This document shows, piece after piece, positions 33,844 through 44,095 of a DNA stretch of 64,000 bases. Every line of letters starts with the position of its first letter. The stretch's first letter is position 1. Below the pieces are notes generated by a model. It saw only the letters and a program-made list of their open reading frames with translations, was not told the origin of the DNA and ran no database searches. The position numbers were made by a program, and so were the translations under genes. The stretch comes from Schistocephalus solidus (Eukaryota > Platyhelminthes > Cestoda > Diphyllobothriidea > Diphyllobothriidae): NCBI GenBank assembly GCA_017591395.1, contig WEDG01000466.1, positions 310,001 to 374,000 of the forward strand, read 5' to 3'.

Positions 33844-34494
33844 GGCAGCATAACATGACCGACAAAGACAAGGGGAGACTGGAATGACCATTTCTGGCTT
33901 ATTAGCCGTCATCAGCCAGCCATACCCAAACCCAGGCGCTGCGGCGCCCGAGCCTCGAACTCGCGACCTTCTTGGGCAGAAGTCCAACGCTCTACCCACT
34001 GCGCCACGAGCTCGTTGTCTTGCCGGTTTCGATCGGGAATATTAACAATTGTAGTGGGGCGCTCACCGATCGGTTACAGGACTCACTCGTCCCGTTGTGC
34101 CTTGGGGCTAACTCTCAAGCCCCGCCAGCAGCCGTGAGGCAGCTTAGTATATAGGCAGAATAACATGACCGACAAAGACAAGGGAGACTGGAATGGCCAT
34201 TTCTGGCTTATTAGCCGTCATCAGCCAGCCATACCCAAACCCAGGCGCTGCGGCACCGAGCCTCGAACTCGCGACCTTCTTGGGCGAAGTCCAACGCTCT
34301 ACCCACTGCGCCACGAGCTCGTTGTCTTGCCGGTTTCGATCGGGAATATTAACAATGGTAGTGGGGCGCTCACCGATCGGTTACAGGACTCACTCGTCCC
34401 GTTGTGCCTTGGGGCTAACTCTCAAGCCCCGCCAGCAGCCGTGAGGCAGCTTAGTATATAGGCAGAATAACATGACCGACAAAGACAAGGGAGA

Positions 34495-34535
34495 CTGGAA
34501 TGGCCATTTCTGGCTTATTAGCCGTCATCAGCCAG
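34495..34535 (-). ncRNA. Hammerhead ribozyme motif, type I (representative array unit)
   Basis: Minus strand, 5' to 3': CTGG (stem I, 34,535-34,532); CTGATGA (34,531-34,525); C then GGCT-AATA-AGCC then A (stem II with a C/A mismatch at its base); GAAA (34,510-34,507); palindrome TGGCCA; TT; then CCAG (34,498-34,495) closing stem I. Predicted cleavage is after the ATT triplet, between 34,499 and 34,498. Further out GGG (in ggtttGGGtatgg) can pair with CCC (in tctCCCttg), making an internal loop in stem I as in natural fast-cleaving forms. Stem III is minimal and self-complementary, so a dimeric fold is likely. The same segment sits at the equivalent place in the other units; only the first (33,855 unit) has a changed palindrome (TGGTCA). 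Confidence 0.75.
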
Positions 34536-34566
34536 CCATACCCAAACCCAGGCGCTGCGGCGCCCG

Positions 34567-40600: not shown

Positions 40601-43600
40601 TGTGCCTTGGGGCTAACTCTCAAGCCCCGCCAGCAGCCGAAAGGCAGCTAAGTATATAGGCAGAATAACATGACCGACAAAGACAAGGGAGACTGGAATG
40701 GCCATTTCTGGCTTATTAGCCGTCATCAGCCAGCCATACCCAAACCCCAGGCGCTGCGGCGCCCGAGCCTCGAACTCGCGACCTTGTTGGGCAGAAGTCC
40801 AACGCTCTACCCACTGCGCCACGAGCTCGTTGTCTTGCCGGTTTCGATCGGGAATATTAACAATGGTAGTGGGGCGCTCACCGATCGGTTACAGGACTCA
40901 CTCGTCCCGTTGTGCCTTGGGGCTAACTCTCAAGCCCCGCCAGCAGCCGTAAAGGCAGCTAAGTGTATAGGCAGAATAACATGACCGACAAAGACAAGGG
41001 GAGACTGGAATGGCCATTTCTGGCTTATTAGCCGTCATCAGCCAGCCATACCCAAACCCAGGCGCTGCGGCGCCCGAGCCTCGAACTCGCGACCTTGTTG
41101 GGCAGAAGTCCAACGCTCTACCCACTGCGCCACGAGCTCGTTGTCTTGCCGGTTTCGATCGGGAATATTAACAATGGTAGTGGGGCGCTCACCGATCGGT
41201 TACAGGACTCACTCGTCCCGTTGTGCCTTGGGGCTAACTCTCAAGCCCGCCAGCAGCCGTAAAGGCAGCTAAGTGTATAGGCAGAATAACATGACCGACA
41301 AAGACAAAGGGGAGACTGGAATGGCCATTTCTGGCTTATTAGCCGTCATCAGCCAGCCATACCCAAACCCCAGGCGCTGCGGCGCCCGAGCCTCGAACTC
41401 GCGACCTTGTTGGGCAGAAGTCCAACGCTCTACCCACTGCGCCACGAGCTCGTTGTCTTTTTCGGTTTCGATCGGGAATATTAACAATGGTAGTGGGGCG
41501 CTCACCGATCGGTTACAGGACTCACTCGTCCCGTTGTGCCTTGGGGCTAACTCTCAAGCCCCGCCAGCAGCCGTAAGGCAGCTAAGTATATAGGCAGAAT
41601 AACATGACCGACAAAGACAAGGGAGACTGGAATGGCCATTTCTGGCTTATTAGCCGTCATCAGCCAGCCATACCCAAACCCAGGCGCTGCGGCGCCCGAG
41701 CCTCGAACTCGCGACCTTGTTGGGCAGAAGTCCAACGCTCTACCCACTGCGCCACGAGCTCGTTGTCTTGCCGGTTTCGATCGGGAATATTAACAATGGT
41801 AGTGGGGCGCTCACCGATCGGTTACAGGACTCACTCGTCCCGTTGTGCCTTGGGGCTAACTCTCAAGCCCCGCCAGCAGCCGTAAAGGCAGCTAAGTATA
41901 TAGGCAGAATAACATGACCGACAAAGACAAGGGAGACTGGAATGGCCATTTCTGGCTTATTAGCCGTCATCAGCCAGCCATACCCAAACCCAGGCGCTGC
42001 GGCGCCGAGCCTCGAACTCGCGACCTTGTTGGGCAGAAGTCCAACGCTCTACCCACTGCGCCACGAGCTCGTTGTCTTGCCGGTTTCGATCGGGAATATT
42101 AACAATGGTAGTGGGGCGCTCACCGATCGGTTACAGGACTCACTCGTCCCGTTGTGCCTTGGGGCTAACTCTCAAGCCCCGCCAGCAGCCGTAAGGCAGC
42201 TAAGTATATAGGCAGAATAACATGACCGACAAAGACAAAGGGAGACTGGAATGGCCATTTCTGGCTTATTAGCCGTCATCAGCCAGCCATACCCAAACCC
42301 AGGCGCTGCGGCGCCCGAGCCTCGAACTCGCGACCTTGTTGGGCGAAGTCCAACGCTCTACCCACTGCGCCACGAGCTCGTTGTCTTGCCGGTTTCGATC
42401 GGGAATATTAACAATGGTAGTGGGGCGCTCACCGATCGGTTACAGGACTCACTCGTCCCGTTGTGCCTTGGGGCTAACTCTCAAGCCCCGCCAGCAGCCG
42501 TAAAGGCAGCTAAGTATATAGGCAGAATAACATGACCGACAAAGACAAGGGGAGACTGGAATGGCCATTTCTGGCTTATTAGCCGTCATCAGCCAGCCAT
42601 ACCCAAACCCAGGCGCTGCGGCGCCCGAGCCTCGAACTCGCGACCTTGTTGGGCAGAAGTCCAACGCTCTACCCACTGCGCCACGAGCTCGTTGTCTTGC
42701 CGGTTTCGATCGGGAATATTAACAATGGTAGTGGGGCGCTCACCGATCGGTTACAGGACTCACTCGTCCCGTTGTGCCTTGGGGCTAACTCTCAAGCCCC
42801 GCCAGCAGCCGTAAGGCAGCTAAGTATATAGGCAGAATAACATGACCGACAAAGACAAGGGGAGACTGGAATGGCCATTTCTGGCTTATTAGCCGTCATC
42901 AGCCAGCCATACCCAACCCCAGGCGCTGCGGCGCCCGAGCCTCGAACTCGCGACCTTGTTGGGCAGAAGTCCAACGCTCTACCCACTGCGCCACGAGCTC
43001 GTTGTCTTGCCGGTTTCGATCGGGAATATTAACAATTGTAGTGGGGCGCTCACCGATCGGTTACAGGACTCACTCGTCCCGTTGTGCCTTGGGGCTAACT
43101 CTCAAGCCCCGCCAGCAGCCGAAAGGCAGCTAAGTATATAGGCAGAATAACATGACCGACAAAGACAAGGGAGACTGGAATGGCCATTTCTGGCTTATTA
43201 GCCGTCATCAGCCAGCCATACCCAAACCCAGGCGCTGCGGCGCCCGAGCCTCGAACTCGCGACCTTCGTTGGGCGAAGTCCAACGCTCTACCCACTGCGC
43301 CACGAGCTCGTTGTCTTGCCGGTTTCGATCGGGAATATTAACAATGGTAGTGGGGCGCTCACCGATCGGTTACAGGACTCACTCGTCCCGTTGTGCCTTG
43401 GGGCTAACTCTCAAGCCCCGCCAGCAGCCGTAAGGCAGCTAAGTATATAGGCAGAATAACATGACCGACAAAGACAAGGGAGACTGGAATGGCCATTTCT
43501 GGCTTATTAGCCGTCATCAGCCAGCCATACCCAAACCCAGGCGCTGCGGCGCCCGAGCCTCGAACTCGCGACCTTGTTGGGCAGAAGTCCAACGCTCTAC

Positions 43601-44095
43601 CCACTGCGCCATGAGCTCATTGTCTTTTTCGGTTTATATCGGGAATATTAACAATGGTAGTGGGGCGCTCACCGATCGGTTACAGGACTCACTCGTCCCG
43701 TTGTGCCTTGGGGCTAACTCTCAAGCCCCGCCAGCAGCCGTAAGGCAGCTAAGTATATAGGCAGAATAACATGACCGACAAAGACAAGGGAGACTGGAAT
43801 GGCCATTTCTGGCTTATTAGCCGTCATCAGCCAGCCATACCCAAACCCAGGCGCTGCGGCGCCCGAGCCTCGAACTCGCGACCTTCTTGGGCAGAAGTCC
43901 AACGCTCTACCCACTCTGCGCCACGAGCTCGTTGTCTTGCCGGTTTCGATCGGGAATATTAACAATTGTGGTGGGGCGCTCACCGATCGGTTACAGGACT
44001 CACTCGTCCCGTTGTGCCTTGGGGCTAACTCTCAAGCCCCGCCAGCAGCCGTAAAGGCAGCTAAGTATATAGGCAGAATAACATGACCGACCGAC

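Follow-up and report, generated by a model that had tools for sequence, protein, structure and literature searches.

How did some 10 kb of head-to-tail units, each combining promoter-like boxes with a hammerhead-like motif, arise at one place in a tapeworm genome, and could such units still be transcribed, cut and moved? The question is raised by the minus strand between positions 33844 and 44091 of a 64,000-nucleotide stretch of Schistocephalus solidus DNA (contig WEDG01000466.1, 310,001 to 374,000), which was analysed as a whole and is called the window here; all positions are counted within it. Our best explanation, held with fair but far from firm confidence, is that the locus is the homogenised tandem array of a transfer RNA (tRNA)-derived retroelement family that resembles short interspersed nuclear elements (SINEs) and is of the kind represented by SMalpha and the retrozymes. 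Papers are cited by PubMed Central (PMC) number, and what is credited to each is what its accessible part states.

Units of the array and their promoter-like boxes

A preliminary description of this DNA had proposed 33 head-to-tail units averaging 310 bp, and the counts bear it out: Tandem Repeats Finder reports 33838-44091 with a period of 310, 33.1 copies and 98% matches, and 33 cleavage-type sites delimit 32 whole units with a mean spacing of 309.8 and a mean pairwise identity of 98.4%. The minus-strand layout then described (CTGG-CTGATGA, stem II, GAAA, CCAG) is likewise present, the 41-base string from CTGG-CTGATGA to TGGCCATT-CCAG occurring 32 times exactly and once with a single mismatch (33919) on the minus strand of the array, with no exact occurrence on the plus strand. 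Read along the direction of transcription, the tRNA-like head of a unit, which holds the A and B boxes, is followed by the ribozyme motif, 24 bases of tail and some 150 bases of spacer; the unit has no coding capacity and a G+C content of 56.6%. The cut proposed earlier falls on a unit boundary, and a unit-length RNA of about 310 nt stands as a prediction. The features are, in window coordinates:

33844 to 44091, minus strand: tandem array with 33 hammerhead-like motifs and 32 complete units of 307-312 bases
34499 to 34807, minus strand: example unit u30, equal to the array consensus, predicted to give a 309-nt RNA between two cut sites
34612 to 34622, minus strand: A box of u30, TGGCGCAGTGG, a consensus match
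34567 to 34577, minus strand: B box of u30, AGTTCGAGGCT
34493 to 34537, minus strand: hammerhead-like motif with stems I to III and a C10.1/A11.1 mismatch, the expected cut lying between 34499 and 34498

Measured against the box consensus printed in PMC8969392, the A box of the unit agrees at 9 of 9 defined positions and the B box at 7 of 9, with 34 bases between them. Their summed score of 16 was reached by none of 300 mononucleotide-shuffled units (best shuffle 15), which upholds the minus-strand boxes of the preliminary description as a promoter of RNA polymerase III (Pol III) type. In an older, diverged dimer of the same family (listed below) the agreement is 8 of 9 for the A box and 9 of 9 for the B box. 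The Rfam tRNA model scores 27 of the 33 array units at 19.0-19.6 bits and the older dimer at 27.1 and 25.6 bits, all under its cut-off of 29. The transcribed strand of the array contains no TTTT in 10,248 bases, the first one standing 128 bases past the array, so that Pol III could read through many units; this absence is statistically weak because near-identical units amount to about one independent unit, in which about 0.9 would be expected.

The units also carry traces of their history. The four at the edges are more diverged from the consensus than the others (5.75 vs 2.57 changes, P=0.0013), adjacent units are slightly more similar to each other (P=0.015), and the four-gamete test fails at 36 of 171 informative site pairs, a combination that fits unequal exchange or gene conversion. 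On the same three grounds, a single untouched rolling-circle insertion is disfavoured as the origin of the array. Selection inferred from the invariance of the motif within the array was dropped as well, since a spacer stretch of 100 bases is almost invariant too and the array is homogenised.

Dispersed copies and TA tracts

The array is one part of a dispersed family with at least 15 more copies in the window. A model (R1) built from 13 family copies gives 48 matches at E<0.001 (33 array units and 15 copies elsewhere, 4 of these 15 absent from the model), its recovery of the 13 being no independent evidence. The further copies, and the two TA tracts that bound the array with its inverted partner, are as follows:

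44796 to 45434, minus strand: older, diverged dimer with hammerheads at 44841-44885 and 45144-45188, and (AT)n at 45461-45502
44097 to 44401, plus strand: inverted, decayed copy of about one unit, head-to-head with the array
51975 to 52154, minus strand: partial copy that begins immediately 5' of the hammerhead, stops within the spacer and is flanked on either side by (AT)n
6574 to 6805: two head-to-head copies (6608-6652 minus, 6732-6776 plus), from alignment and R1
60776 to 61003: two head-to-head copies (60780-60821 minus, 60943-60987 plus), from alignment and R1
11225 to 11550, plus strand: dispersed copy with spacer, one stem II pair being changed on both sides
7240 to 7348, minus strand: dispersed copy, from alignment and R1
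26387 to 26963: three dispersed copies (26439-26484 plus, 26723-26761 plus, 26907-26951 minus), from alignment and R1, the second and third tail-to-tail
50224 to 50369, minus strand: dispersed copy, from alignment and R1
816 to 917, minus strand: dispersed, strongly diverged copy, from alignment and R1
33739 to 33843: (TA)52 at the 3' end of the array, which stops within the only TATATA of its unit
44416 to 44478: (TA)31 beyond the inverted copy, away from the array

Where the inverted copy and the array meet, a long perfect hairpin (43997-44125, plus strand) scores 41 bits with a microRNA model whose cut-off is 74; the hairpin exists because the copies meet head-to-head.

Among the dispersed alignments that include the ribozyme, 6 of 11 stop 21-24 bases past the cut site and 3 of 11 continue into the spacer; these ends suggest two coexisting forms of the family, one SINE-like and one in tandem with the spacer. 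Neither a report of this repeat family or of a cestode hammerhead, nor any paper containing the motif strings, was found among the matches listed from open-licence PubMed Central (for a cestode hammerhead, going by titles and the opening of abstracts), where not being found is not the same as being undescribed. Exact ribozyme strings are absent from the viral contigs and prokaryote genomes searched, and a 96-amino-acid reading has no relative in the viral contigs.

A second tandem family, with a period of about 356 bp, has copies at 46056-48499, 44480-44795 and 58889-59160, each beside TA tracts. Two of these copies are inverted or part-inverted, and the one at 58889-59160 has one piece in sense and one in antisense orientation, with a TA tract at each end; Rfam found nothing relevant and no ribozyme in the 356-bp unit (46056-46780). 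Each of the nine TA tracts of at least 12 bases has a copy of one family or the other within 100 bases, and seven have one within 30, against means of 0.7 and 0.3 in 5000 random placements (maximum 5 at 100 bases); against full reliance on these figures, the comparison was made only once the pattern had been noticed, and a single insertion may account for two tracts. Five of the nine are within 30 bases of the hammerhead family itself, and six remain within that distance of either family when the third 356-bp copy is left aside. That all tracts lie near copies suggests insertion into (TA)n. At 51975-52154, flanked by (AT)n, a target duplication and a pre-existing repeat look alike. The TA tract adjoining this insertion is also where the first copy (51705-51964) of a 260-base direct repeat ends, the second copy lying at 52410-52669 with 95% identity.

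It is quite possible, if somewhat doubtful in our judgement, that the (TA)n tracts are tails borne by the elements or late expansions at AT-rich ends, not targets, and that a long interspersed nuclear element (LINE) mobilises the family as it would an ordinary SINE. The common 3' end of the six alignments speaks for this, as do several old copies that have no TA tract, whereas (AT)n flanks the copy at 51975-52154 on either side and this copy breaks off within the spacer, and TA tracts enclose both the array and the 356-family copy at 58889-59160, each with inverted parts in between.

If the tracts are targets, the insertion machinery is perhaps Penelope-like. Penelope-like elements (PLEs) prefer TA repeats. 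They leave a tandem second copy and inverted pseudo-long terminal repeats (pLTRs), and retrozymes "may rely on PLEs" (PMC8969392); PMC7229834 goes no further than to name them a strong candidate for mobilising animal retrozymes. The hammerhead family shares with them the tandem second copy and the inverted parts (PMC8969392), seen here in the array with its inverted partner and in the other head-to-head pairs; it differs in that its unit is non-coding, and library searches did not identify a PLE protein.

A broken reading on the minus strand, from 2298 to about 2800, looks like a PLE reverse transcriptase; its open pieces gave no match in Pfam, NCBIfam or PDB.

The hammerhead-like motif and its possible activity

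In layout the motif is a type I hammerhead, with stems I, II and III and the open end at stem I. Stem I pairs GGCUGG (GACUGG in older copies) with CCAGUC over six pairs and continues beyond an internal loop as GGG/CCC. The core CUGAUGA is followed by stem II (GGCU/AGCC, four pairs, loop AAUA) and by GAA, which together give the CUGANGA and GAA consensus with A15.1-U16.1 and H17. Stem III is built from the palindrome AUGGCCAU, with the predicted cut after AUU; it has only two pairs in a single motif (three on the descriptor count) and eight in a dimer.

Several observations weigh against a working ribozyme, and some against the family's assignment as a whole. At the foot of stem II, all 13 aligned copies have C.A as pair 10.1-11.1 (a 45-column alignment that leaves out 4 of 17 rows because of indels or decay, one of these having T at 11.1). 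According to Perreault et al., this pair is the most conserved in hammerheads after A15.1-U16.1 (PMC3088659), and a natural U.U known there allows more cleavage than any other mispair (PMC3088659), so that C.A is expected to be weaker. The Rfam hammerhead models matched nothing in the whole window at the gathering cut-off, in 33600-48700 at E up to 10, on a 121-base piece, or on 461 bases of the older dimer. Folded as a hammerhead, a single 45-base block is less stable than the predicted optimum by 6.6 kcal/mol in the array and by 5.5 kcal/mol in older copies, and with 55 bases the gap is 7.2 or 7.1 kcal/mol. Covariation does not exceed that of shuffles (one pair changed on both sides vs 0.7), and the invariance of the motif within the array can come from homogenisation. 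The G+C content of the unit, finally, contrasts with values below 45-50% for metazoan retrozymes (PMC7229834).

The covariance-model hit that the preliminary description had named as a check is thus absent with the Rfam hammerhead models, a result to be taken as a warning rather than a refutation because no positive control with a short-stem-III hammerhead was run. Its type I hammerhead survives in layout (motif, stems and core) and fails at 10.1-11.1, in Rfam and in covariation; for its interpretation as a whole, tandem units, Pol III type promoter and hammerhead layout stand, and the covariance-model hit does not.

Evidence from predicted folds is mixed. For two blocks, the optimum is the dimeric hammerhead with one extra pair per side (-35.7 kcal/mol, vs -33.9 for the exact dimeric hammerhead), and older copies behave alike (-36.9 vs -35.1 kcal/mol). 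Within a 449-nt tandem model holding two ribozymes, the shared stem III reaches a probability of 0.62-0.70. In that model the probability of stem I does not exceed 0.02 in cis and is 0.0 for the single trans pairing computed, and the gain on dimerisation is ordinary, both again to the disadvantage of an active ribozyme; dimer stability was dropped as proof of a ribozyme, since 356 of 1000 shuffles (35.6%) gain as much. Folded as a circle, the unit stands out as stable, with -131.4 kcal/mol (z -5.0), and the older unit has a z of -2.9.

These points give some room, in our tentative estimate, to a fossil: a satellite of SINE origin with little or no hammerhead activity, whose array grew by unequal exchange, and in which a block of 65 bases was kept for another reason, such as a SINE core domain or a recognition site for reverse transcriptase. 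That block, the ribozyme plus its tail, is 96.9% identical between the array unit and the older dimer unit, compared with 68.9% for the rest (block shuffling P=5e-5), which counts in favour of the retroelement explanation, but it extends about 20 bases of 3' tail past the ribozyme; the six alignments that end shortly 3' of the cut site do so as the 3' end of a SINE made from uncut RNA would. The constant C.A, the missing Rfam match and covariation, the more stable competing folds, and the edge divergence and four-gamete failures, which fit homogenisation at the DNA level, all sit well with such a fossil. Against it, the rest of the consensus core positions are intact, the double change in stem II and the altered palindrome of the copy at 11380-11424 still pair, and axolotl ribozymes with U.U at the same pair do cut, better as dimers (PMC7229834).

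A descriptor that leaves 10.1-11.1 free, relaxed at that position after the motif had been seen, finds 35 loci on the minus strand (33 in the array and 2 older copies), which count as one event and not 35 because the copies have a common ancestor; it finds none on the plus strand or in the reversed window. Over 150 simulated 128-kb sequences the loci number 8, 3 and 1 as the demands on the stems rise, and an earlier run gave 2 in 40. An ordinary satellite that resembles a hammerhead by chance is very improbable: the descriptor finds no locus in the window when 10.1-11.1 must pair, and the loose motif turns up about once per 19 simulated windows (8 in 150), but stems I and II this long appear once in 150, conservation between the subfamilies is highest in the motif, and flatworms offer a precedent for Pol III boxes and hammerhead together (PMC2576457).

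Relatives and a possible cycle

SINE-like elements of Schistosoma, SMalpha and Sjalpha, were reportedly described by Ferbeyre in 1998 and Laha in 2000. Elements of the SMalpha type combine a type I hammerhead with Pol III A and B boxes (PMC2576457), and SMalpha is a tRNA-related SINE (PMC2770079). By description, the present family resembles them in unit size (335 bp for W36.2_W001, PMC8490949), in its type I hammerhead and boxes, in its probable tRNA-related SINE character and in having tandem and dispersed copies; it differs in the C.A at 10.1-11.1, the AUU cut site and the G+C content. Satellite-borne hammerheads with very short stem III are known in another flatworm, in the W-elements of S. 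mansoni (PMC8490949), although those are W-chromosome satellites weakly similar to SMalpha, and the accessible part of that paper mentions no link to TA tracts.

Retrozymes were recognised here by tandem repeats of about 150-450 bp with a type I hammerhead, a G+C content below 45-50%, plentiful linear and circular RNA and, when present, target duplications of more than 4 bp. The repeat length and its hammerhead fall within this description. With the metazoan non-LTR (non-long terminal repeat) retrozymes the family shares tandem units of about 300 bp, a type I hammerhead and a range from dimers to long multimers (PMC7229834). For retrozyme hammerheads dimeric action has been proposed, and platyhelminths are among the phyla that have such repeats (PMC7229834). 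A difference is the Pol III promoter, of which no mention is made for retrozymes in the accessible part of PMC7229834. Closest in the ribozyme itself are axolotl HHR_Amex2 and newt satellite-2, which also have a short palindromic or tetraloop-capped stem III and a mismatch at the foot of stem II, and which act better as dimers (PMC7229834); their mismatch is U.U, whereas it is C.A here, and HHR_Amex2 cuts 22% in one hour as a monomer and more as a dimer (PMC7229834). The resemblance to SMalpha and animal retrozymes named in the preliminary description is supported by PMC2576457, PMC2770079, PMC8490949 and PMC7229834. There are two departures from the known kind, the C.A at 10.1-11.1 and the high G+C content, in addition to the link with TA tracts, which to our knowledge is unreported.

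By analogy, the family most probably works like SMalpha and the animal retrozymes. From what is present in the DNA itself (the unit, its boxes, the lack of TTTT, the motif, the location at TA tracts, the inverted partner and the signs of homogenisation) we infer a cycle of four events. Pol III would start at the A and B boxes of one or more minus-strand units and read through many of them. In the resulting multimer, two hammerheads at a time would join through the palindrome, which then serves both as their stem III, and cleavage after AUU would release monomers of about 310 nt. The monomers may then be closed by a host tRNA ligase, as has been shown for other animal retrozymes. The reverse transcriptase of another element would use the RNA as template for insertions at (TA)n, in some of which the first part is inverted. 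At the present locus, unequal exchange or gene conversion would afterwards have homogenised the array.

A more specific form of the retroelement explanation is unlikely as it stands, though worth stating. The family would be a Pol III hammerhead SINE with a fixed, attenuated ribozyme (C.A below stem II, palindromic stem III) in which cutting needs two adjacent units acting together; multimers and circles would for that reason persist and be reverse-transcribed by a Penelope-like enzyme, primed on (TA)n DNA at UAUAUA of the RNA. If true, paired cutting with (TA)n priming accounts for tandem arrays, inverted first parts and TA landing sites together, and it offers a testable answer to what mobilises animal retrozymes. 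Since two unrelated tandem families, one of them bearing the hammerhead, both occur at (TA)n and have inverted partners, that question becomes testable through insertion sites genome-wide. A natural C.A hammerhead at 10.1-11.1, if active, would also widen the active core, U.U being the only mispair named in the accessible part of PMC3088659.

The window holds other repeats. A 1.7-kb inverted duplication (28262-29945 and 54134-55814) is 95% identical, and two tandem copies of about 424-427 bases each at 9766-10616 are 99.5% identical. Two tRNA-Ser genes (anticodon act) are predicted at 19965-20047 (plus strand) and 30454-30538 (minus strand) within an 81% inverted repeat, and the second of them exceeds the Rfam tRNA cut-off.

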